38,096 nt of DNA from Enorma phocaeensis (lineage in GTDB: Bacteria; Actinomycetota; Coriobacteriia; Coriobacteriales; Coriobacteriaceae). The stretch spans positions 1 through 38,096 of the forward strand of contig NZ_JACJKQ010000019.1 of NCBI RefSeq assembly GCF_016901575.1. Reading direction: 5' to 3'. A program made the position numbers and the translations under genes. How positions within the stretch are numbered: the stretch's first letter is position 1; every line of letters starts with the position of its first letter. The notes under the pieces are model-generated. The model was given only the letters and a program-made list of their open reading frames with translations, did not search any database and had not been told where the DNA came from. Below, piece after piece: positions 1 to 11,531 of this stretch.

Positions 1-19
1 AGATGTGTATAAGAGACAG
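1..19 (+). other. Tn5/Nextera mosaic-end adapter remnant
   Basis: The first 19 bases read AGATGTGTATAAGAGACAG, which is exactly the transposase mosaic end used in Nextera library preparation. This is residual adapter, not genomic sequence. It indicates that the window's left edge is a contig edge and that the real genome begins at about base 20. Confidence 0.95.
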
Positions 20-222: not shown

Positions 223-2130
223 ATGGCAGACAAGGATTGCAGTCCCGGCGCCTCGGGCGCCGCGCGCGTGCATTCGACGTCGGGGTCCGTGCCGGGCGAT
301 GGGCGAGCTGGTGGAGCCGCCGGAGCGGGCTCCGGCTCGGCCGTCGGGCGCCTGCTCGCCTTCGCCGGCCCGCGCCGCGCGCTCACCTATCTGGGCTGTG
401 TGCTCTCGGCTGCGTCAATGCTGGTGAGCTTTGGGCCGTATGTATGCATCTGGTTCGCGGCGCGCGACCTCATCGCGGTTGCCCCCGACTGGGCTGCGGC
501 GACAGGCATCGCCGCATATGGCTGGTGGGCGCTCGGCTTTGCCGTGGGATCGATCGCGCTCTATTTCGTCGGCCTCATGTGCACGCATCTCGCCGCCTTC
601 CGGTGCGCGTCCAACATGCGCAAGCGTGCCATCGGCCATCTCATGCATACGGGCTTGGGCTACTTCGACATGCACGCCTCGGGGGCGCTCCGGCGCGTGG
701 TGGACGGCTGCGCCCTCGAGACCGAAGGGCTGCTTGCGCACAAGCTGCCGGACACGGCGGGCTCGGTGGCAATGATCTTGGGAATGCTGGCGCTCTTCTT
801 CGTCTTTGACTGGCGGCTGGGCGTCGCCTGCCTCGTGCCCGTGGCGGTGTCGCTCGCCTGCATGTTCTACATGATGGGCGGGCGTGGCATGGACTTCATG
901 ACGCGCTACATGGGCTCGCTCGTGAAGATGAACAAGACCGGCACCGAGTACGTGCGCGGCATCCCGGTCGTGAAAGTGTTCCAGCAGACGGTCTACTCGT
1001 TCCGCGCGTTCCATGACGCCATCGAGGAGTTCACTCGTCTCGCGCAGGACTACGCCGTGAAGTGGTGCCGGACCCCGCAGTCGCTCTCGCTCACCGTCAT
1101 CAGCGCCGCCGCGGCATTTCTCGTGCCGGTGGCCGTCATGCTTGCGCCGGGCGAGCACGACCTCGCCCACTTTGCCGCGAACTTCGCCTTCTACGCGATC
1201 TTCTCGGCGGTGATTCCCACCGCCATGACGCGCGTGATGTTCATGTCCGAGGCGTTCCAGTCCGCGGCGGACGCAGTGGGCCGCGTGGAGGAGGTACTCG
1301 CCGCCCCCGTGATCGAGGCCCCCGCCGCGCCTCAGGTCCCCTCCGACAACTCCATCCGCTTTGAGGGCGTGGGCTTTACCTATGAGGGCGCCGAGGCGCC
1401 GGCGCTCGACCGGGTCTCCTTCGAGGTTCCGGCGGGCGCCACGGTGGCGCTCGTGGGGCCCTCCGGCGGCGGCAAGACCACGGCGGCGAGCCTTGTGCCG
1501 CGCTTCTGGGACGTCGGCGCGGGACGCGTGCTCGTGGGCGGCGTGGACGTGCGCGATATGGACCCTGCCGACCTCATGGGGCGTGTGGCCTTCGTCTTCC
1601 AGGCGAACCGGCTCTTCTCGCAGTCGATTCTTGAGAACGTGCGCGCGGCGCGGCCTGACGCGACGCGCGGGGAGGTCATGGCCGCGCTCGAGGCCGCGCA
1701 GTGTGCGGACATCATCGAGAAGCTGCCCGACGGCGTCGACACCGCCTACGGCGCTGCGGGCGCGCACCTCTCCGGTGGCGAGGTGCAGCGGCTCATGCTC
1801 GCCCGCGCCATCTTGATGGATGCCCCGATCGTGGTGCTCGACGAGGCCACTGCCTTTGCCGACCCCGAGAACGAGGCGAAGATCCAGGCCGCCTTCGGGC
1901 GCCTTGCGCACGGGCGGGACGGGGCGCCGCGCACGGTGCTCATGGTCGCCCATCGCCTCTCGACGGTGAGAAACGCCGACAAGATCGTGGTGCTCGACGG
2001 GGGCCGCGTGGCCGAGCAGGGCACTCACGAGGAGCTTCTTGCGGCGGGCGGCCTCTACGCGCGGATGTGGGCCGACTACGAGCAGGCTGTGAGTTGGAGG
2101 ATCCAGAGCGCCGAAGGGAGCGCGCGATGA
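223..2130 (+). CDS. ABC transporter, fused permease-ATPase (YbtP/IrtA-like half 1)
   Basis: 635 residues. A six-helix exporter-fold membrane domain (about 40-340) is followed by a nucleotide-binding domain (about 370-635). The ATPase shows Walker A GPSGGGKTT (near 412), Q-loop VFQANRLF, signature LSGGE (near 516), Walker B IVVLDEATA (near 537) and H-loop VAHRLST. The phrase ATAFADPENE after Walker B is typical of the siderophore-import half-transporters YbtP/YbtQ and IrtA/IrtB, which use an exporter fold to take up ferric siderophores. The start is set by AAGGAG at 211-216. The stop overlaps the next gene by ATGA, so the two halves are translationally coupled and probably heterodimerise. Substrate is inferred from family resemblance, the AraC regulator and the esterase nearby; a drug or peptide exporter is the alternative. 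Confidence 0.88.
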   Translation: MADKDCSPGASGAARVHSTSGSVPGDGRAGGAAGAGSGSAVGRLLAFAGPRRALTYLGCVLSAASMLVSFGPYVCIWFAARDLIAVAPDWAAATGIAAYGWWALGFAVGSIALYFVGLMCTHLAAFRCASNMRKRAIGHLMHTGLGYFDMHASGALRRVVDGCALETEGLLAHKLPDTAGSVAMILGMLALFFVFDWRLGVACLVPVAVSLACMFYMMGGRGMDFMTRYMGSLVKMNKTGTEYVRGIPVVKVFQQTVYSFRAFHDAIEEFTRLAQDYAVKWCRTPQSLSLTVISAAAAFLVPVAVMLAPGEHDLAHFAANFAFYAIFSAVIPTAMTRVMFMSEAFQSAADAVGRVEEVLAAPVIEAPAAPQVPSDNSIRFEGVGFTYEGAEAPALDRVSFEVPAGATVALVGPSGGGKTTAASLVPRFWDVGAGRVLVGGVDVRDMDPADLMGRVAFVFQANRLFSQSILENVRAARPDATRGEVMAALEAAQCADIIEKLPDGVDTAYGAAGAHLSGGEVQRLMLARAILMDAPIVVLDEATAFADPENEAKIQAAFGRLAHGRDGAPRTVLMVAHRLSTVRNADKIVVLDGGRVAEQGTHEELLAAGGLYARMWADYEQAVSWRIQSAEGSAR

Positions 2131-3905
2131 TGTCGATCAAGGAGAAGTATGCACTCACCGACGAGGGCGTGAGGAACGTGCGCCTGGGCGCGGTTTGGAC
2201 CACCGTCACCAATCTGGTGGTCTTTGCGAGCGTGGGATTCACCTACGCCATCATGAGCGCGATCGTGGCGCGGCTTACGGGTGGGGAGGTGGAGCTGGGC
2301 CCTTGGGGCACGCTTGGCTTTGACCCGCTCGCCGTGCCCGTTGCCGGCTGGGTCGCCGCGATCGCAGCCTACCTCGCGGTCCTTTTCGTGTGCGAACGGC
2401 TTGCCTACTACTATCAATATGGCGTCATCTACAAGGAAAGCGGCCGGCAGCGCATCGCCCTTGCCGAGCGCCTGCGGAAGCTCCCGCTCTCGTTCTTTGG
2501 ACGGCGCGACCTCGCCGACCTCACCGAGACGCTCATGGGCGACGTCAAGACCACCGAGCATGCCTACAGCCACGTGCTGCCGGAGCTCTACGGCGCCTAC
2601 GCCACCATGGCCATCGCCTTCGTGTGCCTGGTCGCCTTTGACTGGAGGCTGGCGGTGGCATCCATGTGGTCGGGGCCGGTGGCGCTGCTGCTGCTTTTTG
2701 GCGTGCGCTCCCGCCTTCAGCCGCTCATGCATAAGACGCGCATGGCGGGGCTTAAGACCTCTGAGTTCATCCAGGAGGCGCTCGAGTGCGTGCGCGAGGT
2801 GCGTGCGACCAACCAGGAGGAGCGCTATCTCGAGCACATCTACGAGAGCGTCGACACGGCCGAGCGCACCGCTATCCGCGGCGAGCTTGCCTGCGGGATC
2901 GCGGTCAACGGCGCGCAGATCGTGTTGCGCCTGGGCTTTGCCACCACGTTGCTCACGGGTGCCGGCCTCGTGCTCGAGGGCACGTGCGACTTTCTTGCCC
3001 TGTTCTGCTTCCTGTTGGTGGTGAGTCGCATCTACGCTCCCTTCGACCAGGCGCTCATGCTTATCGCCGAGCTCTTCTCGGCTCGCACCGCGGCGGCGCG
3101 CATGAAGAGCTTCTTCGAGGAGCCGCTCGCCGAGGGCGGCGAGGCGTACGACCCTGCCGGCCACGACGTGGCGTTCGAGCACGTGGGCTTTGCCTACGAG
3201 AAGGGTGGCGAAAAGGTGCTCGAGGACGTCTCCTTCGTTGCGCGCGAGGGCGAGGTCACGGCGCTCGTGGGGCCGTCGGGCTCTGGCAAGTCGACCTGTG
3301 CGCGGCTGGCGGCGAGGCTGTGGGACGCAAGCTCGGGCCGCGTGACGGTGGGCGGCGTGGACGTCTCGACGGTGGATCCGGAAGTGCTGCTCCGGGACTT
3401 CTCGGTGGTCTTCCAAGACGTGACGCTGTTTGACGACACCGTGATGGGAAACATCCGCCTGGGCCGGCGCGGCGCCACCGACGAGGAGGTGCTCGCCGCG
3501 GCGCGGGCGGCGAGGTGCGACGGGTTTGTCTCGCGGATGCCTGAAGGGTACGCCACGATGATCGGCGAGAACGGGGCGCGCCTCTCGGGAGGCGAGCGGC
3601 AGCGCATCTCCATCGCTCGCGCGCTGCTTAAGGACGCTCCGATCGTCCTGCTCGACGAGGCCACGGCATCGCTCGACGTGGAAAGCGAGACCGAGGTGCA
3701 GGCGGCCCTCAGCCGTCTGCTGGCTGGGCGCACGGTCATCGTGATCGCCCACCGCATGCGTACCGTCATGGCCGCCGACCGCGTGGTCGTGCTCGACGGC
3801 GGCCACGTCGCCGAGCAGGGGAGCCCCGAGCGTCTCATGGCTGCGGGAGGCCTCTTTGCCCGCATGGTCGCGCTCCAGCGCGAGAGCGCCGACTGGGCGC
3901 TCTGA
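2127..3905 (+). CDS. ABC transporter, fused permease-ATPase (YbtQ/IrtB-like half 2)
   Basis: 592 residues starting MMSIKEKYALTDEG, at the ATG that overlaps the upstream TGA. A longer open frame runs upstream but lies antiphase inside the partner gene, so this start is preferred. The membrane domain covers about 1-320. The ATPase has Walker A GPSGSGKST (near 383), Q-loop VFQDVTLF, signature LSGGERQR (near 486), Walker B IVLLDEATASLD (near 506) and H-loop IAHRMRT, all intact. It is the partner of the preceding half-transporter and should form a heterodimer in the inner membrane. It is a close paralog of the gene at 7782; the two share an identical stretch of about 35 nt (3478-3512 and 9118-9152). 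A repeat array begins about 105 bp after its stop. Confidence 0.88.
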   Translation: MMSIKEKYALTDEGVRNVRLGAVWTTVTNLVVFASVGFTYAIMSAIVARLTGGEVELGPWGTLGFDPLAVPVAGWVAAIAAYLAVLFVCERLAYYYQYGVIYKESGRQRIALAERLRKLPLSFFGRRDLADLTETLMGDVKTTEHAYSHVLPELYGAYATMAIAFVCLVAFDWRLAVASMWSGPVALLLLFGVRSRLQPLMHKTRMAGLKTSEFIQEALECVREVRATNQEERYLEHIYESVDTAERTAIRGELACGIAVNGAQIVLRLGFATTLLTGAGLVLEGTCDFLALFCFLLVVSRIYAPFDQALMLIAELFSARTAAARMKSFFEEPLAEGGEAYDPAGHDVAFEHVGFAYEKGGEKVLEDVSFVAREGEVTALVGPSGSGKSTCARLAARLWDASSGRVTVGGVDVSTVDPEVLLRDFSVVFQDVTLFDDTVMGNIRLGRRGATDEEVLAAARAARCDGFVSRMPEGYATMIGENGARLSGGERQRISIARALLKDAPIVLLDEATASLDVESETEVQAALSRLLAGRTVIVIAHRMRTVMAADRVVVLDGGHVAEQGSPERLMAAGGLFARMVALQRESADWAL

Positions 3906-4010
3906 CGGGCTTGCTCTGACAGGCTGCGCGAGCTGGCGGGACACGTTGGGCCCCGGGGCGTCCGGGCAGGTCGGACCACGCCCGGCTGCCGCCCCTGCCC
4001 ATCCCGCAGG

Positions 4011-4321
4011 CTGGTCATTTCCCCTCTGCCCTGGGCACGGCGCGCGCGGCGCGGGGGTCCCGGTGGTCAAGTTGCCCCTCACCTGGGCACAACCTGGCCG
4101 CCGTGAGGGCTCTTCGGAGACGCTCCGCGGCGCCCCGCCGCCCAGGGAGGGCGTCTCGTGACCATGCAAGCCGATTCGGCGCAGGCCGCATGCCCAGAGA
4201 TCGGGCAGATTGACCATCAGGTGCGGCCGCGCGCGCTTGGCCTGCCCAGAGTCCAGGCGGATTGACCATCCGGTGCCGCGGCGCGCGCGGCGCCTGCCCA
4301 GGGGTCGAGCGAGATGACCAC
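4011..4321. repeat. Repeat array A: inverted 52-bp-period array (2 left + 4 right units)
   Basis: Right-facing units start at 4139, 4191, 4243 and 4295, exactly 52 bp apart. Each reads (T/C)GCCCAG, 13 variable bases, then TGACCA(T/C) at offset 20. Two left-facing units are the reverse complement; their TGCCCAG ends lie at 4089 and 4037, again 52 bp apart, with GTGGTCA at 4063-4069 and CTGGTCA at 4011-4017. The left and right sets are separated by a 49-bp centre (4090-4138). The 25 bp between units is GC-rich and not conserved. The same rules hold in array B at 10551-10859. The function is unknown. The 52-bp period equals about five B-DNA helical turns, which favours protein binding on one face of the helix. 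Confidence 0.9.
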
Positions 4322-4442
4322 CGTTCCCATGGAGACCGGCATGCTCAGGCTCTTTCGTGAGGAGCGGCGGTTCCCCCAGGAATGCGCCGCCAGCCGCAAG
4401 GACGCCTTCCGTCGGACGCTCGCCTTCCTCAATCGGTGGTAG
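4314..4442 (+). CDS. Possible small ORF or gene fragment, 42 codons
   Basis: The frame begins MTTVPMETGMLRLFREE inside the last unit of repeat array A and ends FLNRW before TAG at 4440. Its codon use (GC-rich third positions, many Arg, Phe and Glu codons) looks like neighbouring genes, but there is no convincing ribosome site and I recognise no family. It may be the tail of a gene cut off by the repeat array, a true small protein, or chance. Low confidence. Confidence 0.2.
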   Translation: MTTVPMETGMLRLFREERRFPQECAASRKDAFRRTLAFLNRW

Positions 4443-4622
4443 GCCGTTCGCAACCATGCTCGACTGTGCGCCTCGGCACGTCATTGCCACAATGATTCCG
4501 GTCGTATAAGGAGACAGGCCTTGCAGTTGCCTGCGTTGCGTCGCCCCAAGTTTACAGCCGTTGGTCCATGTCATCCGCCATGTAGGCCCATGCGTCCTGT
4601 GACTGCGAGCCGGCCCCGTTTG

Positions 4623-5723
4623 TCAGGCGTCGGCGACCTGAGCGACGTTCATGCGGCTCGCGGCGCGCCATTGGCTCGGGGACATGCCATGGGCGCGGGC
4701 GAAGGCAGCGGAGAAGCTCGTGGGGGAGCGATAGCCGACGGCGCGGGCGGCATGCTCGACGGTGGAGCCGCATGCGAGGAGCAGCCTTGCCTCGCGCATG
4801 CGGCGCATGGTGAGGTAAGTTGCCCATGAGCTGCCGGTTGCCTGGCGAAAGAGCCGCTTGAACGTGGTGAGCCCCATGCCGGCGACCTCTGCCGCCTCCT
4901 TCTGGCCCGCGCCCTCGCGGAGCCGCGTGTTCGCAAGTTCGATGGCGGCAAGGATGCCTGCGCGGGCGCGTCGGTCAGCGGGAAGCGCCTCAGCTGCCGT
5001 TTGCACGAGCGAGCCGAGGAGCAGCTTTGCCGCGCCCTCGTAGATGAGCGGGGTTCCCGAACCGGCTGGATCGGCGCGCCCGATCTCCTCCAAGGAGAGC
5101 AGCACGCTCGGCGCCCAGCTAACGTCTCCGCGCATATCTGCCAAGAGGCTTGAGATCTCTTCGACCGAGCCTCGGCCAAGGCGGGCGAACGCGGCACGGA
5201 GCGCCCCATCGAAATACTCGACTTCTGTATAGGCGAAGCGCGTGCCGGCGGGGACGGGCGTGGTTACCCAGCCCTCGCGCGTTTCGATATAGGCGATGGC
5301 AGCGGTGTCGCTCGGCGTGGTGGCGTCTTTTGGGGAGTTGGTTGCGGAGGGCGCTGGTCCGCGCACGGTGAGGTAGCGTCGCGTGGCGATGCCAAAGAGC
5401 GTGTCGACGAGCATCGTGAAGTCGCAGGTGACCACCGTGAATCCGTTGCCTGCCCACGCGTGGTACCAGCCCGATGCCCGCGTCCCGTCTCCCACGAAGA
5501 GGGCGCCCACATGGGCGGTATCGTTTTTCGGCAGCAGACCCATGCGCTCAAGCTCGGCAGCCTGGAAGAGCTCGCAGGCGTCTGCCGGCCGGTTGCCGTC
5601 TCGGGTTCGATCGATGCCGGGGTATCGGTCAGACCCGGTTGCGGTCGCATCGTACGTGGGACGGCGGCGGGCCGCGGCCTCTTCGTGCGGTCGCGGAGCT
5701 CTTCCCATGGTCGTTTTAGCCAT
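4623..5723 (-). CDS. AraC-family transcriptional regulator of the ABC/siderophore locus
   Basis: 366 residues from MAKTTMGRAPRP. The ATG at 5723 is preceded by AGGGAGGACG. The open frame continues 49 codons upstream but across the divergent promoter, so it was trimmed. The C-terminal 100 residues are a double helix-turn-helix AraC domain: KEAAEVAGMGLTTFKRLFRQ as the first HTH and AARAVGYRSPTSFSAAFARA as the second, ending in the typical GMSPSQWR. The N-terminal 230 residues are an unrecognised effector or dimerisation region. It is divergent from the ABC pair at 5841 and shares a 117-bp intergenic region containing a DtxR-like box. By analogy with YbtA, which is encoded beside ybtPQ, it may sense an imported siderophore; that role is inference. 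Confidence 0.85.
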   Translation of the reverse strand: MAKTTMGRAPRPHEEAAARRRPTYDATATGSDRYPGIDRTRDGNRPADACELFQAAELERMGLLPKNDTAHVGALFVGDGTRASGWYHAWAGNGFTVVTCDFTMLVDTLFGIATRRYLTVRGPAPSATNSPKDATTPSDTAAIAYIETREGWVTTPVPAGTRFAYTEVEYFDGALRAAFARLGRGSVEEISSLLADMRGDVSWAPSVLLSLEEIGRADPAGSGTPLIYEGAAKLLLGSLVQTAAEALPADRRARAGILAAIELANTRLREGAGQKEAAEVAGMGLTTFKRLFRQATGSSWATYLTMRRMREARLLLACGSTVEHAARAVGYRSPTSFSAAFARAHGMSPSQWRAASRMNVAQVADA

Positions 5724-5762
5724 GCTCGGCCGTCCTCCCTGAATCGCGTTGCAGAATCCATG

Positions 5763-5779
5763 TAAGCCTATTCTAACTT
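5763..5779 (-). promoter_or_regulatory. Second copy of the DtxR/IdeR-like operator
   Basis: Read on the minus strand this is AAGTTAG-AATAGG-CTTA. It shares all 11 fixed positions with the box at 155-171 (AAGTTAG-N6-CTTA) and, by eye, 11 of 19 with the IdeR/DtxR consensus. It lies between the divergent AraC gene (start 5723) and ABC gene (start 5841), so one metal-sensing repressor could control both. Confidence 0.5.
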
Positions 5780-5840
5780 GTTGCGACACGGGCGGAGCGG
5801 CGCATGGTCCTTCGCGCGGTTGCAGCGGAAAGGAGGTCAC

Positions 5841-7781
5841 ATGGCCTACAACGAACCAGGGGCGGCACAAGATGCGGGTGCCGAGAAATCTCAGTCATGT
5901 CCGGGTTCCACGGGCGGGCAAGCGACCAGTCGGCAATCTTGGGCCGCTCGCGTCATAGGGTTCACGGGAGGCGGGCGCTGGCTCATCTACCTCTCCATGG
6001 CGCTCTCGGTGCTGTCGTCTGCCTGCACGTTCGTGCCGTTTGTCGCGGTGTATCTCGTGGTGGCGGACGTCATCGCGGTCTACCCGGACTTCTCGGCGCT
6101 CGACGCGGCGCGCATGGCGGGCTTCGGATGGATGGCGGTCGCGGGCGTGGTCGCAAACATCGGGCTCTATCTCGCGGCCCTGCTCTGTGCGCACTCTGCG
6201 GCCTTTGACGCCGAGTACCACCTCAAGCTGCAGATCGTCGAGCACCTGGCGCGCGTGCCGTTGGGGAGGCTCGAGGCGCTGGGCACGGGCCGCGTGGGAA
6301 AGATCATGGATGAGAGCGTCGGCGCCATCGAGGGCTACCTCGCGCACTCGCTGCCCGACACGGCGGCGGCCTTCACCGCGCCCGTGGCCATCGTCGTGCT
6401 GCTGTTCGTCTTCGACTGGCGCTTCGGGCTGGCCGCCGTCGCATGCGTGGTCGCGGCGTTCGGCGTCGAGGCGGCCGGCTTCTCCAACAAGGCCATCACG
6501 GAGAAGATGCGCCGGCACCTCGTCAACCAGGAGCGCATGTCAAACGCGACGGTGGAGTACGTGCGCGGCATGCCCGTCGTGAAGACCTTCGGCCAGACGG
6601 CGGAGTCGTTCGGACGCCTCTCCGAGGCGGTGCGCGCCTATACGGACCTCGCGCTCGACGTCGCGCTCTTCTGGCAGAGCCTCATGCCCGCCTTCACGGC
6701 CATCATCAACAACGCGTATCTCTTTATCCTGCCCGTGGGCATCGCGCTCGGTGCGGGGCTCGACGGCGAAAGCTTTCGCGCCTTCGCGCTCGACTTCATC
6801 TTCTACCTGCTGTTTGTTCCCTCCATTGCGGGCGCGCTCAACAAGATGATGTACATCTCCGAGGACAGCATGATCATTACGGCGCAGCTCGCGCGCATCG
6901 ACGAGGTGCTCGGGATCGAGCCTGTGCCCGCGCCGCGGGCAGGCGAGGCGCGCGTGCCGGAGCGCTATGACGTGGAGCTTGACGACGTGTGCTTCTCGTA
7001 TGGCGCGGCGGGCGAGGGGAGCGCGGGCGAGAAGGACGGCGCGCCTGCGGGCCCGCTCGCCCTCGACCACGTGAGCCTGGCCGTCCCCGCCGGCACCACG
7101 CTCGCCATCGTGGGGCCCTCGGGCGCGGGAAAGTCGACCGTGGCGAGCCTCGTGGCGCGCTTCTGGGACGTTGACGCGGGCGCGGTGCGCATCGGGGGCG
7201 TCGACGTGCGCGACATCGACCCCGACGACCTCATGGGCTGCATGAGCCTCGTCTTCCAGGACGTCCACCTCTTCCGGGCGAGCCTGCTCGAGAACATTCG
7301 CATGGCCCGGCCCGACGCCACGCGCGAGGAGGTCGTCGAGGCGGCGCGCGCCGCGCAGGCTGATGCCTTCATCCGCGCGCTGCCCCAGGGCTACGACACT
7401 GTCTTCGGCAGCGCGGGCGTGCATCTCTCGGGCGGCGAGGCGCAGCGCGTCTCCATCGCCCGCGCGATCCTGGCCGACCGCCCCATCGTGGTGCTCGACG
7501 AGGCCACGGCGTTCTCCGATCCCGAGAACGAGCATCTCATCCAGCTCGCCTTCGAGCGGCTCATGGCGGGCAAGACCGTGATCATGATCGCGCACCGGCT
7601 CTCGACGGTGGTCGGTGCAGACCAGATCGCGGTCGTGGACGGCGGGCGCGTGGCGGAGCGCGGGCGACACGAGGGGCTGCTCGCCGCGCGCGGTGCCTAT
7701 GCGCGCATGTGGGCGCGCTACACGCAGGCCCTCTCGTGGGGCATCGAGTCGAACGCCTCGAACGACAAGGAGGTGGCCTAG
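5841..7781 (+). CDS. ABC transporter, fused permease-ATPase (second YbtP-like copy)
   Basis: 646 residues from MAYNEPGAAQ. The start is chosen at 5841 because AAAGGAGGT lies at 5829-5837; a longer frame starts before this site. The membrane domain covers about 45-345. The ATPase has Walker A GPSGAGKST (near 425), Q-loop VFQDVHLF, signature LSGGEAQR (near 529), Walker B IVVLDEATAFSDPENE (near 550) and H-loop IAHRLST, all complete. It is closely related to the product of 223-2130 and is the first half of a second heterodimeric pair. The stop is adjacent to the ATG of the next gene with no gap (TAG then ATG). The paralogy suggests duplication of an ancestral pair, perhaps for a second ligand. 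Confidence 0.88.
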   Translation: MAYNEPGAAQDAGAEKSQSCPGSTGGQATSRQSWAARVIGFTGGGRWLIYLSMALSVLSSACTFVPFVAVYLVVADVIAVYPDFSALDAARMAGFGWMAVAGVVANIGLYLAALLCAHSAAFDAEYHLKLQIVEHLARVPLGRLEALGTGRVGKIMDESVGAIEGYLAHSLPDTAAAFTAPVAIVVLLFVFDWRFGLAAVACVVAAFGVEAAGFSNKAITEKMRRHLVNQERMSNATVEYVRGMPVVKTFGQTAESFGRLSEAVRAYTDLALDVALFWQSLMPAFTAIINNAYLFILPVGIALGAGLDGESFRAFALDFIFYLLFVPSIAGALNKMMYISEDSMIITAQLARIDEVLGIEPVPAPRAGEARVPERYDVELDDVCFSYGAAGEGSAGEKDGAPAGPLALDHVSLAVPAGTTLAIVGPSGAGKSTVASLVARFWDVDAGAVRIGGVDVRDIDPDDLMGCMSLVFQDVHLFRASLLENIRMARPDATREEVVEAARAAQADAFIRALPQGYDTVFGSAGVHLSGGEAQRVSIARAILADRPIVVLDEATAFSDPENEHLIQLAFERLMAGKTVIMIAHRLSTVVGADQIAVVDGGRVAERGRHEGLLAARGAYARMWARYTQALSWGIESNASNDKEVA

Positions 7782-9284
7782 ATGGCCGCAACAAGCAAGA
7801 CGCCCCGCATCCAGCGCGCCCTCGCGCTCACCGACGAGGGGTATCGGGGCCTCAGGCGCGCCATAGCGGCGTGCACGCTCACCAACCTGGCCCTCATGGT
7901 GCCCTTCGCCCTCACCGTCATGGTCTTCGGGGCGGTGCTCATGCGGCTCACGGGCGACGAGGCGGACTGGGGAGGGCTCTGGGGCCTCTTCGCGGCGGGC
8001 GCCGTGGGGCTCGTCGTGGTGTTTCTCTGCGCGCGCAACGACTACCGGCGGACCTACGTCACGGCGTATCGCGAGACCGAGGCCACGCGCATGGGCCTCG
8101 CCGAGCACCTGCGCCGGCTGCCCATGAGCTTCTTCAACCAGCGCGACCTCTCCGAGCTCACCGAGAACCTCATGGGCGACGTCTCGAGCCGCGAGTCGCT
8201 CATGTCGAGCACCGTCCCGCAGCTCGTGGCGAGCTGCGTCTCCACGGCGGTGGTCTGCGCGATGCTCGCCTTCTTCGAGTGGAGGCTCGCCCTCTGCGTG
8301 TTCGTGACGCTGCCCGTGGCGCTTGGCATCGTGCTTGCCGCGCGCCAGCACGAGCGACGGCTCTTCGAGCGGCAGACAAAGGCGCGCCTTGCGGCGTCGG
8401 CCCAGCTCATGGACTACATCGAGGGCATCCGCGACATCCGTGCGTGCCGGCAGGTGGGCGCGCGCTCCAAGCCTATGCGCGCGGCGCTCGGGACGCTTCG
8501 CGACCTTGCCATGAAGGTCGAGCTTGCGGTTGACGTATGCGTCTCGGCTGCGACCACGGTGCTCCAGGCGGGCGTGGGCATCACGGTCTTCGTGGGGACG
8601 ATGCTTCTTTCGGGCGGCGAGGTCGACGTCCTCACGCTGCTCATGTTCCTGCTCATCGTCTCGCGGGTGTACGGTCCCATCACCTCGATCCTCTCGCAGC
8701 TGCCGAACCTGCTCTCGCTCTCGGGCCGCACGGCTCGCCTCCGGGCGCTTGCCGAGGAGCCGGTGGCTGCGGGGTCGGGCGACGCCGCGGGTCTGGGCGA
8801 GAGGTCCATCGAGCTTCGCGACGTGCGCTTCTCGTATGACGGGAACGGCGACGAGGTCCTGTGCGGCGTCTCCTTCACCATGGAGCCGGGTACGGTGACG
8901 GCGCTCGTGGGGCCGAGCGGTTCGGGCAAGTCTACGGTGGCAAAGCTCGTCGCGCGGTTCTTCTCGCCCTCCTCCGGCGCGATCTGCGCGGGCGGCGTGG
9001 ACCTCGCCGGGCTCGACGAGGAGTCGTGGCTCAGAAACGTGTCCGTGGTCTTTCAGGACGTGACGCTCTTTGACGACACGGTCATGGAGAACATCCGCAT
9101 GGGCCGCGCCGGCGCCTCCGACGAGGAGGTGCTCGCCGCGGCGCGGGCGGCGCACTGCGAGGAGTTCGTCGATCGCATGCCCGAGGGCTGGGGGACGCGG
9201 CTCGGCGAGAACGGCGCGCGCCTCTCCGGCGGCGAGCGGGTCCGTCGTCGCTCCACTTGCGGCGGCGTGCGAGCTGCACGCTGA
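7782..9284 (+). pseudogene. ABC transporter half, truncated after the LSGGER signature
   Basis: 500 codons; the paralog at 2127-3905 has 592. The membrane domain and first half of the ATPase are normal: Walker A GPSGSGKST (near 378), Q-loop VFQDVTLFDD and LSGGER at 481-486. From base 9240 the frame switches to an unrelated 14-residue tail (VRRRSTCGGVRAAR) and stops. Walker B, the catalytic Glu, the D-loop and the H-loop histidine are all absent, so the protein cannot hydrolyse ATP on its own; at best it supplies one degenerate site. The break is sharp, with full homology up to base 9239 and none after. Causes could be a genomic deletion or insertion, or a chimeric assembly join. The gene starts directly after its partner's stop. 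Confidence 0.85.
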
Positions 9285-9344
9285 GAGAAGGTCCGGTGGA
9301 GCTTCTGCCGCCCTCTGCCTCGTTCGAATTATCTACTTCAAAAG

Positions 9345-9453
9345 TTGACTAACAAGATGGTCAATAAGGTGGGTATAGTTGTGACGGAAAGGGCTTACAG
9401 GGGGGGGTGCGTTCGAGCGGGCGATGGTGGTGAAGCATGGAGAGGTTGCTTGA
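9345..9453 (+). pseudogene. Possible frameshifted remnant of the PIN toxin's antitoxin
   Basis: From a TTG at 9345 the frame reads MTNKMVNKVG to a run of eight G (9400-9407). If that run were seven G, translation would continue in a frame ending FERAMVVKHGEVA and stop at 9453, overlapping the toxin ATG (9437) in the way coupled antitoxin-toxin pairs usually do. As sequenced, the frame is broken. The product would be only about 35 residues, so even intact it may be just the end of a longer antitoxin lost in the nearby rearrangement. Speculative. Confidence 0.25.
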
Positions 9454-9805
9454 TGCCGACGCTGTGCTTCGCTACTTGTTGGAAGACGTCCAGGAGCAGG
9501 CGGACATTGTCGCGCGGAGTATTGAGCTGGGTGCAGAGGTCACGGTAGAGGTGCTGGCCGAGTGCGTATACGTGCTCTCGGGCGTGTACCGCGCGAGCCG
9601 CTCGGACATCGCCGAGAGCCTCCGCATTTTGCTTGATGAGGTGACGTGCCGTCGCAAGCGCGTCGCCACGACGGCGCTGGGGCTGTACAGCGCAAGCTCG
9701 CTCGACTTCGTCGATTGTGTGCTGGCGGCTGAGGTGGCCGAGGGTGGGCGTGAGGTCCTTACGTTCGACAAAAAGCTGCAGGGCCTTCTGGGTCGCTTCG
9801 TGTAG
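9437..9805 (+). CDS. PIN-domain protein (VapC-like toxin ribonuclease)
   Basis: 122 residues. The N-terminus MERLLDADAVLRYLLED matches the PIN start pattern, with the first acidic residue in LLDAD. The second acidic region is VEVLAECVYVL. The third acidic cluster is SLDFVDCVLAA, followed by VLTFDKKL near the end. This layout is typical of PIN nucleases that cleave RNA and are usually paired with an upstream antitoxin. No complete antitoxin precedes it here, only a possible frameshifted remnant, so it is an orphan or its antitoxin lies elsewhere. It sits directly after the breakpoint that truncates the ABC gene. The ribosome site is weak; translation may have been coupled to the missing antitoxin. 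Confidence 0.75.
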   Translation: MERLLDADAVLRYLLEDVQEQADIVARSIELGAEVTVEVLAECVYVLSGVYRASRSDIAESLRILLDEVTCRRKRVATTALGLYSASSLDFVDCVLAAEVAEGGREVLTFDKKLQGLLGRFV

Positions 9806-9856
9806 CGCGCTTTTCGTGTTGTATGGCATGCACATCGAAGAGGGGGTGAGGGGATT

Positions 9857-10537
9857 GTGAGCTACGTCGACCTAGACGGGTGCGAGGTCCTTCACGGCGC
9901 GGGCGGGTCGAAGGCTCCGGTCGTGTATGTGGTCGACCTGCCCGAGCATCCCTTTGACCTGGCCACGGCGGCTGAGGGGCTGCGCGCGCATGTGGTGCGT
10001 GTGCCCGTGCGCCGTTGGGACGACAGCCTGACCCCTTGGCCCGCGGCGGGCGTGCGCCCGGGCTCTCCCGACTTCGGCGGCCGAGCCGCCGAGACGCTCG
10101 CGGAGCTTGTGGACGCGACGATTCCCGCGGTCGAGGCAGCAAGGGGTCTCGATCCCGCGCGTCGTGCGGTCTGCGGATACTCGCTCGGCGGGCTCTTCTC
10201 GCTCTATGCGTTTGTGCACGCCGCCTCTCCCTTCTCTGCCTGCGCATGTCTTTCGGGCTCGGTCTGGTACGAGGGATGGGTCGATTATCTGCGGCGCACG
10301 TGCCCGGACGGAGCGGGACGCTACGCGTATCTTTCGATCGGGAAGAAGGAGCGCCGCGCCGGGGCGCCTATCATGCGAGGTGTTCAGGACGATCTGGAGG
10401 CATGCGCCGCCATCCTGCGGGAGCACGGCTGTGCGGTGGATTTGGTCGTGGGTCCGGGCAATCATATGCAGCACCACACCGAGCGACTCGCCGCGGGGCT
10501 CGCGGCGCTCGATGCACGCCTCGCACGCGACCGTTGA
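9857..10537 (+). CDS. Alpha/beta-hydrolase esterase (IroE/Fes-like)
   Basis: 226 residues from GTG at 9857, with GAGGGGA just upstream. The fold is an esterase-D/siderophore-esterase type: nucleophile elbow CGYSLGG with Ser109, oxyanion and strand region PVVYVVDLPE near the N-terminus, and a C-terminal catalytic histidine probably His203 in GPGNHMQHH. There is no signal peptide, so it is likely cytoplasmic. In iron-uptake loci such enzymes hydrolyse imported ferric siderophores to release iron, which fits the two YbtPQ/IrtAB-like pairs upstream. The exact substrate cannot be read from sequence; a general carboxylesterase is the alternative. Its stop is 13 bp before the first unit of repeat array B. 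Confidence 0.75.
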   Translation: MSYVDLDGCEVLHGAGGSKAPVVYVVDLPEHPFDLATAAEGLRAHVVRVPVRRWDDSLTPWPAAGVRPGSPDFGGRAAETLAELVDATIPAVEAARGLDPARRAVCGYSLGGLFSLYAFVHAASPFSACACLSGSVWYEGWVDYLRRTCPDGAGRYAYLSIGKKERRAGAPIMRGVQDDLEACAAILREHGCAVDLVVGPGNHMQHHTERLAAGLAALDARLARDR

Positions 10538-10902
10538 TTCCGCTGCGCGCATGGTCAATTTCGCGAGCGCTGGGCAGAGGTCTCGCGATGCGCGTGGACG
10601 ATGGTCGATAGCCCCTTGTTCTGGGTATGGCATGCGTGACGGGAAAGCGCCGGTGGTCAATCTATGGGTTTGCTGGGCAAGGTCCGGATGCTGTCTGGCA
10701 CGTCGGGCACGATTTCTGTTTATCTCGCTGCCCAGGGAAGGCGTTTTGTGACCATGAGAGGCGGGCAGGCGCAAACGGCTTGCCCAGTGGAGGCGATGTA
10801 TGACCAACGGGGAGCGCGCCCTGACGGTTGCCTGCCCAGCGCATGGATGGATTGACCATCATGTAGGGGCCGCGTCCTGCGAACAACGGTCTGCCCGACG
10901 AC
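10538..10902. other. Convergent intergenic region filled by repeat array B
   Basis: This 365-bp gap lies between the esterase (+, stop at 10537) and a membrane-protein gene (-, stop at 10903). Almost all of it is repeat array B (10551-10859). I see no gene in it. Confidence 0.8.
10551..10859. repeat. Repeat array B: inverted 52-bp-period array (3 left + 3 right units)
   Basis: Right-facing units begin at 10729, 10781 and 10833 (52-bp steps), each TGCCCAG-N13-TGACCA(T/A). Left-facing units end at 10679, 10627 and 10576 (52 and 51 bp apart), with (T/C)GACCA 19-20 bp away on the minus strand. The centre between left and right sets is 49 bp (10680-10728), the same as in array A. The first right unit resembles its array A counterpart also in the variable part (GGAAGGCGTTTTG against GGAGGGCGTCTCG, 10 of 13). 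CGGTGGTCAA is identical in the innermost left units at 4061 and 10651. Like array A, it sits between convergent genes. Confidence 0.9.
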
Positions 10903-11328
10903 CTACTGCGAGCCGACGACGCTCCGTCGTGCGGTCGCCCAGCCGATCGCGAGCCCTATGGCTGCGGGGGCGAGGCCAAGGGCGAGTGCGAAGAGGCCGT
11001 CGTCAGCGATGTTGGTTAATCCGAGCATATTCGAGAGGCCAAACGTCGCTTTGATGAAGAGCCCAAAGAAGATGGCGATCGCGGGCGCGGCGACGATGCG
11101 CCATCGTCCGAGATATGCGGTCCGGCCGATAAGAAGGGATGAGGCGAAGCCGGCCGCAGGCAGGACGACGTAGAGCGCCAGCAACGTGTATCCCATGATG
11201 CCGCCTCCTCCGAGGGCCCCTGTTGCCAGGCCTCCCCAGTACAAGGCAAGGCAGGCGAGCCAAGCCGCCCCGTAGACAACGCGTGCAGCGACGAGATTGC
11301 GTGATGCGGCTGCGCTTCCCTTGGCCAT
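10903..11328 (-). CDS. Small integral membrane protein, unknown function
   Basis: 141 residues from MAKGSAAASRN. The ATG at 11328 is preceded by AAGGAGGTATC, a near-perfect ribosome site; a longer frame upstream has no such support. Four hydrophobic segments are visible: ARVVYGAAWLACLALYWGG, MGYTLLALYVVLPAAGF, RIVAAPAIAIFFGLFIKATFG and DGLFALALGLAPAAIGLAIG. I recognise no family motif. It is a single gene, convergent with the esterase across repeat array B and separated from the gene upstream by the 27-bp tandem repeat region. Confidence 0.7.
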   Translation of the reverse strand: MAKGSAAASRNLVAARVVYGAAWLACLALYWGGLATGALGGGGIMGYTLLALYVVLPAAGFASSLLIGRTAYLGRWRIVAAPAIAIFFGLFIKATFGLSNMLGLTNIADDGLFALALGLAPAAIGLAIGWATARRSVVGSQ

Positions 11329-11385
11329 GAGATACCTCCTTGGCTGATTGGTAACCCCCTTATACCCCCTGTCGACAAAGCCCAT

Positions 11386-11520
11386 GCCACAGGGGTGGCC
11401 GAGGAGACCTGTGCCGCGGGGACGGCCGAGGAGGTTCGGGTCGCGGGGACGGTCGGGGAGATCCGAGTCGCGGGGTAACCGAGGAGGTCTAGCGCCGCGG
11501 GAGCCGCCGGGGCGACCTCG
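11386..11520. repeat. 27-bp tandem repeat, five copies
   Basis: Five adjacent 27-bp units start at 11386, 11413, 11440, 11467 and 11494. They share a G(C/T)CGCGGGG core, then a variable CGG or ACC, then GAGGAG(A/G)(T/C). The first and fifth units are the most diverged. The array lies between the promoter side of the membrane-protein gene and the 3' end of trmL, ending 11 bp before the trmL stop. A 27-bp period keeps a 9-codon phase, but I see no convincing gene in it. Confidence 0.8.
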
Positions 11521-11531
11521 CTCCCGAAGGG

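Follow-up and report, generated by a model that had tools for sequence, protein, structure and literature searches.

Mirrored, helically phased DNA arrays in gut Coriobacteriales and a candidate nuclease-fold protein dedicated to them

The stretch of DNA analysed here, called the window, is a 38,096-nt sequence of Enorma phocaeensis that carries two solitary arrays of a two-block unit, TGCCCAG-N13-TGACCA, each laid out as a mirror image around a central segment (Table 1). In array 1 the block starts are 20 bp apart, the unit period is exactly 52 bp, and 49 bp separate the inverted from the direct set. The exact geometry and the opposed orientation of the two sets, as described in the initial annotation, were therefore borne out, with one unit reading CGCCCAG. 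Array 2 is irregular in places, having one unit with N12, one with two mismatches, and spacings of 50/52/75/52/52. The pattern TGCCCAG-N11-15-TGACCA presented 10 exact matches in the window versus 0 in 100 shuffles.

Table 1. Coordinates of the two arrays and neighboring genes in the window, and of the array-linked gene in four genomes
Feature	Position	Strand	Remarks
ABC-transporter-type ATPase gene, left of array 1	2127..3905	+	Named from sequence
Array 1 (solo)	4012..4320	.	2 inverted and 4 direct units, mirror symmetry, TGACCA blocks facing outwards
Array 1 unit TGCCCAG-N13-TGACCA	4012..4037	-	Exact match
Array 1 unit TGCCCAG-N13-TGACCA	4064..4089	-	Exact match
Array 1 centre, 49 bp	4090..4138	.	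75 bp start to start, the centre spacing seen most often in the genus
Array 1 unit, CGCCCAG variant	4139..4164	+	1 mismatch
Array 1 unit	4191..4216	+	Exact match
Array 1 unit	4243..4268	+	Exact match
Array 1 unit	4295..4320	+	Exact match
Esterase-like gene (by eye), left of array 2	9857..10537	+	Ends 15 bp before the array
Array 2 (solo)	10552..10858	.	3 inverted (10552, 10602, 10654) and 3 direct (10729, 10781, 10833) units
Flanking gene, right of array 2	10903..11385	-	Convergent
Array-linked gene, G000 (E. phocaeensis)	C88:34996-35979		Outside the window
Array-linked gene, G002 (Collinsella sp. An2)	C34:28330-29313		Arrays on both sides
Array-linked gene, G009	C11:69838-70836		
Array-linked gene, G021	C4:25444-26442		

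The ABC-transporter-type gene has an orthologue in Collinsella sp. An2 without an array behind it, and the homologue of the esterase-like gene in that species lies ~1.8 kb from another array. Separately, the ~7.6 kb between the ABC-transporter-type gene and a TrmL-like gene (3906-11530) is absent from An2, where the orthologues of these two genes are joined by ~120 bp; arrays 1 and 2 lie near both edges of this accessory segment.

Across the E. phocaeensis genome we found 44 exact units (24 on the plus and 20 on the minus strand), against 0 for a reversed-pattern control. When mismatches were allowed, there were about 16 array loci, the complete ones usually consisting of three inverted and three direct units with TGACCA outwards. 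The consensus of 68 units from the genus (g1) is a non-palindromic, multi-block sequence, CRC..TRCCCAG..ATTGACCA. It had been proposed that only the two blocks are conserved; over the 68 units, weaker conservation is also present at -11..-9, +8, +11/12, and +17..19.

Such arrays are present in some gut Coriobacteriales, at 3-16 per genome. Within g1 they occur in two of the three species, E. phocaeensis and Collinsella sp. An2, and none was found in the third (G001). The two-unit pattern retrieved a second genus of the same family (g4), in which two of nine genomes, G009 and G021, show the mirrored 52-bp layout; their motif has diverged and reads approximately RCCCATA-GTCYC-TCGTGACCA, with TGCTACG upstream. 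Among 397 genomes of the order, multiple matches of this array type were found only in these four; five others had one match each, and these single matches resemble coding sequence. In a public pattern scan, the matches listed outside Collinsella sp. An2 were mostly single chance matches, and viral contigs gave 11 single pattern matches. We found no description of such arrays in the open-access literature. The initial annotation had reserved the case that the two arrays of the window are a coincidental duplication; this lapses, since the pattern searches found further arrays with the 52-bp period in E. phocaeensis and in related genomes.

Two array loci differ in gene content between species. 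At L195, in the array-free third species, a gene that appears transglutaminase-like by eye takes the position, between the corresponding neighbors, that an array occupies in E. phocaeensis and An2. At L178 of An2 (~5100-6930), the array and its neighbor are separated by additional genes, among them what looks by eye like a DUF1778-like/GNAT toxin-antitoxin pair; these genes are absent at the orthologous E. phocaeensis locus (L033).

Then, we evaluated the geometry of the arrays. The conserved positions form blocks about one helical turn apart, both in the 68 units of g1 and in 109 units of g4. Unit spacings in the two genera are 51-53 bp, with one at 50, and centre spacings are 63/64, 74/75, and 84 bp, or 52 where a unit is missing; in a third group, G080, units lie at 63, 73-74, 84, and 95 bp. 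The Rayleigh R was 0.94-0.97 at 10.5 bp in the three groups, with best periods of 10.45-10.65. The suggestion that all sites face the same side of the helix is thus upheld by spacings quantised in 10.5-bp steps.

We next compared orthologous arrays. In seven pairs of G009 and G021, identity was 97.3% in the core (506/520), versus 75.7% in the rest of the array and 73.9% in the flanks (p=6e-37); a small bias is left, as the selection of units by motif used a single member per pair. The same comparison in one E. phocaeensis/An2 pair gave 95% versus 54%. These alignments of orthologues show that the motif positions are under purifying selection. Furthermore, on the basis of frame-verified gene calls, tandem genes flank 37 arrays, convergent genes flank 10, and divergent genes flank none, against 118/20/45 for the other intergenic regions of the same loci (divergent context 0/47 versus 45/183, p=1.6e-5). 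In g4, the flanking genes resemble core genes.

Taken from sequence, the block periodicity, the quantised spacings, the core conservation, and the gene context identify the arrays as phased protein-binding arrays on duplex DNA and not CRISPR, in line with what had been proposed for array 1. CRISPR repeats are near-identical, 21-48 bp long, and in one orientation. The arrays are like them in having short conserved blocks with variable sequence between; the mirror orientation, the blocks of only 6-8 bp, the fillers that merely drift between orthologues, and the lack of CRISPR-length repeats rule this class out.

Other roles were considered and rejected. As regards termination, at the L039/L172 pair both species have a terminator-like hairpin (by eye) that adjoins the gene and is not part of the array. 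A promoter or regulon role was discarded on the basis of the missing divergent context and the mixed flanking genes. Origin or terminus macrodomain sites were discarded because the array loci are dispersed: in G061, the orthologues of the G009 array flanks lie at points from ~0.2 to 0.9 along the ori-ter arm, an indirect estimate by synteny. The arrays thus differ from matS/parS-type sites, and nothing was found to support the earlier suggestion of a nucleoid or segregation site.

We also asked whether the arrays are fixed or mobile. Comparison between species indicates that they are mostly fixed and vertically inherited. Indeed, all seven arrays of G021 occupy positions syntenic in G009. In G023, G079, and G088, element interiors match between species at each locus and are unrelated between loci of one genome, while the ends of the copies are near-identical and the length is fixed at ~205 bp. 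Alignment also shows that one whole array was copied elsewhere with sharp ends: in An2, L170 reproduces the inner 3+3 part of L173; the two share 77% identity right up to the array edges, beyond which their flanks are unrelated. The L041/L043 arrays have 66% identity, and two gene-flanking elements in L239 share interiors that are 71% identical. Internal sequence common to copies was found only in L170/L173 and L041/L043 among the solo arrays, and in the array pair that surrounds the L175 gene. In this last An2 locus, a ~70-bp direct repeat (4677-4747 and 7140-7210, 93%) of the 3' end of the upstream gene brackets the array-gene-array block. The terminal inverted ends read TGGTCR...YTGACCA, and in clade B the ends are 25 bp long. 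No short target-site duplications were found in ~48 arrays; together with the fact that most copies within a genome share the motif and not the filler, this lends active mobility little support. The idea that the arrays are the footprint of a mobile element was partly right: what stands of it is the tie to a dedicated nuclease-fold gene, described below, and the sharp-ended copying of one whole array or more.

To identify proteins linked to the arrays, we clustered the 411 proteins called around the array loci. Only one family is present in all four array genomes, and its gene is array-adjacent in each; in E. phocaeensis this gene occurs once. A close homologue (E<1e-180) was found only in these four among the 397 genomes of the order (next best E 1e-100), although the four form two phylogenetic pairs and are not four independent co-occurrence events. 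The protein is ~330 aa long, and its predicted fold (AlphaFold, pLDDT 87.8) combines an AbiEi-C-terminal-like domain with a Vsr/I-Bth0305I-like nuclease domain. Model residues 193-303 match I-Bth0305I (3r3p; Z 9.5 over 96 residues, rmsd 2.4), NGO0050 (Z 8.4), and Vsr (1cw0; Z 7.2), and residues 1-190 match residues 67-195 of AbiEi 6y8q (Z 8.0), values of 8-9.5 being only modestly above the level that the tool states as usual for unrelated folds. The winged-helix DNA-binding domain at the N terminus of AbiEi lies outside the alignment. With Foldseek alone, no PDB entry matched at E<=0.001.

The acidic residues expected in the active site, E198, D235, and E246 (P0003 numbering), are invariant in 28 members of the family. 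In Pfam, these members presented weak matches to PF18741 (21 members) and DUF559 (9 members), and none to Y1. Ten of the 28 weakly match the PADLOC phage-defence candidate PDC-S37 (best E 3e-4), and the tier-1 members have no PADLOC match. A second, more distant homologue is present in both g1 array genomes (G000:C19:2862-3809 and G002:C8:43740-44681). Related AbiEi/DUF559-like genes, mostly distant, occur in 66 of 67 Coriobacteriaceae genomes, commonly 3-8 in each.

More distant homologues of the array-linked protein, 36-48% identical, were found in about 20 further genomes. In the phylogenetic tree, tier-1 and L223, L227, L249, and L250 form one clade (support 100/99), and multi-unit mirrored arrays were seen beside the genes of exactly this set. 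In the other clade, inverted-ended elements lie beside the gene in nearly all cases, with ends mostly 143-241 bp apart, and on both sides of the gene in L228, L230, L234, L236, L237, and L239. The best inverted 25-mer pair beside 24 distant homologue genes scored 20-25/25, and at least 22/25 in most. In 2-kb background chunks, pairs of at least 22 were found in 5/175 and 2/188, and pairs of at least 20 in ~7-10%, so that the few loci scoring 20-21 are individually weak. The outer block is TTGACCA or a close variant in most of these elements. Scans for the 52-bp array at the distant homologues gave no match, owing to the different spacing there, and the elements were found by looser searches.

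Motifs taken from beside the gene predicted dispersed sites elsewhere in the same genomes. Counting the gene-adjacent ones, there were 42 sites in G080, 9 in G323, and 6 in G334. In G079, G023, and G088 the predicted sites numbered 10, 10, and 5, mostly inverted pairs at a fixed 183-184 bp, and sites of this type were 0 in nine comparison genomes. The predictions thus held in six more genomes, from two families. As side observations, the 205-bp elements at L272-L285 have extra mirrored blocks, the outer ones CGTRCGTTTTC-like, and inner CCCAGGAT-like sequences in many copies; near the homologues, L226 (~3525-3885) and L244 (~1706-2066) contain direct repeats with periods of 32 and 31, possibly CRISPR-like or coding.

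We compared arrays and protein with known systems. REP/REPIN elements are associated with RAYTs (TnpA-REP), which are IS200/IS605-like Y1 transposases, and the REP repeat is a short imperfect palindrome with a conserved 5' tetranucleotide. As in REPIN-RAYT, a single dedicated gene lies beside or is flanked by the repeats, many dispersed inverted solo elements occupy intergenic positions, the motif is specific to each protein lineage, and inheritance is mostly vertical. Conversely, the protein of the arrays has a predicted Vsr/PD-(D/E)XK-fold nuclease plus an AbiEi-like domain instead of Y1/HUH, the units are multi-block, 10.5-bp-phased, and non-palindromic where REPs are short hairpins, the fillers are unconserved, and there are 3-16 arrays per genome versus hundreds of REPIN copies. 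BIMEs are similarly intergenic, avoided between divergent genes, and made of inverted modules, but their units are others, and the strict 52-bp helical register and a dedicated protein belong to the arrays. A BIME/REP-like identity, suggested in the initial annotation, fails on both protein and repeat structure.

The predicted C-terminal fold is shared with Vsr and the EDxHD homing endonuclease I-Bth0305I (Z 7.2 and 9.5), but the sites of the arrays are dispersed self elements, and an AbiEi-like domain is fused. The N-terminal half resembles, in its predicted fold, the C-terminal domain of AbiEi/Rv2827c type IV antitoxin-regulators; these differ from the array-linked protein, in which a winged-helix N-terminal domain was not seen and a nuclease is fused, and whose sites are dispersed genome-wide rather than placed only at its own promoter. 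Binding of AbiEi to 23-bp inverted repeats is cooperative and bends the DNA, and an interaction of the C-terminal domains was proposed to mediate this (PMC7319586); such a role would suit the AbiEi-like domain of the array-linked protein. Among the families compared, none has a definition that covers the arrays and their protein.

The reading that we consider probable is a two-part system, in which one nuclease-fold protein has a set of dispersed docking elements to itself; the organisation resembles that of REPIN-RAYT, but protein and motif are unrelated. The array-linked protein very probably binds its arrays, as judged from the association of gene and motif. Each array would be a stretch of duplex DNA on which a single dedicated protein docks; molecules of this protein would occupy the repeated 40-bp sites along one helix face and touch one another both within a row and over the mirror centre. 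The element of 200-400 bp may thereby be bent or looped into a single closed complex. The conserved fold and residues suggest that the nuclease domain may then attack the element itself or its borders, nicking being the likely mode, and the nuclease might drive the spread of the elements. The gene with its adjacent elements and the solo elements would together make up the two-part system, with mostly vertical inheritance. A fuller version is possible, though we propose it tentatively: a Vsr-fold nuclease, and not a transposase or recombinase, would recognise, maintain, and occasionally copy phased mirror arrays, with protein and motif diverging in parallel across two or more families of Coriobacteriales.

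Somewhat unlikely, in our view, is that the arrays are sites of chromosome architecture or insulation, at which a catalytically idle, domesticated nuclease fold bends or loops intergenic DNA without cutting, in a BIME-like manner at gene ends or at topology and domain boundaries. It would explain the purifying selection on each array in place, the vertical inheritance of the seven G021 arrays at G009 loci, the helical phasing, the 3'-side and never divergent location, and the core-looking neighbors in g4. However, arrays so sporadic among close species would be odd for a core chromosome function; moreover, the catalytic acidic residues are invariant, clustering at origin or terminus is missing, and in several genomes elements lie on both sides of the gene.

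It is improbable that the arrays sequester a toxic AbiEi-like/nuclease fusion as a DNA "antidote", the toxin being freed by phage attack or by loss of sites. AbiEi is an abortive-infection antitoxin domain (PMC7319586), and the weak PDC-S37 matches, the sporadic distribution, and the many sites kept by selection are coherent with such a defence; yet with 7-16 arrays the selection on each should be weak, while the constraint is strong, and the tier-1 members lack a PADLOC match.

We give still less credit to the arrays being remains of ordinary transposons, with MITE-like, non-autonomous copies moved by a conventional transposase and a motif conservation that is residual. Terminal inverted repeats are shared with MITEs and transposons, here as 5'-TG...CA-3' ends, and the pairs L170/L173, L041/L043, and the L239 interiors look like copies. 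Nevertheless, copies in one genome are mostly without common interior, as the near-identical ends and unrelated ~205-bp interiors of G023, G079, and G088 illustrate, target-site duplications were not found, and at orthologous loci the blocks are far more conserved than the filler.

The protein gene is very unlikely to be a hitch-hiker with another protein binding the arrays. The link between gene and array could arise from a shared larger module with the real binder encoded by another gene, and the two phylogenetic pairs leave room for this; against it, motifs taken from beside the gene correctly predicted the dispersed arrays of a further six genomes from two families, the array type agrees with the protein clade, and adjacent inverted-ended elements occur at most of the 24 homologues. 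Finally, an RNA element, or a single-stranded DNA or RNA hairpin or cruciform, is most improbable: relative to dinucleotide shuffles the arrays do have stronger folding (median z -4.5) and g4 filler adds to folding (13/16 with z<-2), but mirrored blocks fold trivially (in g1, against shuffles of the filler alone, the median z is -1.1), the filler drifts, 10.5-bp quantised spacing is meaningless for a hairpin, and no Rfam family matched at gathering score.

To our knowledge, few dispersed bacterial repeats are known to have a dedicated protein, RAYT-REP being the main case. If true, the two-part system would be a second, unrelated solution, pairing a nuclease-fold protein with geometrically strict binding arrays. 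Many natural protein/motif pairs are available for decoding its specificity, and binding can be tested directly in the ten genomes whose dispersed arrays have known motifs. Should the nuclease copy the arrays, this would be a new mode of mobility; otherwise, common gut bacteria would possess a chromosome-binding system of a new kind.
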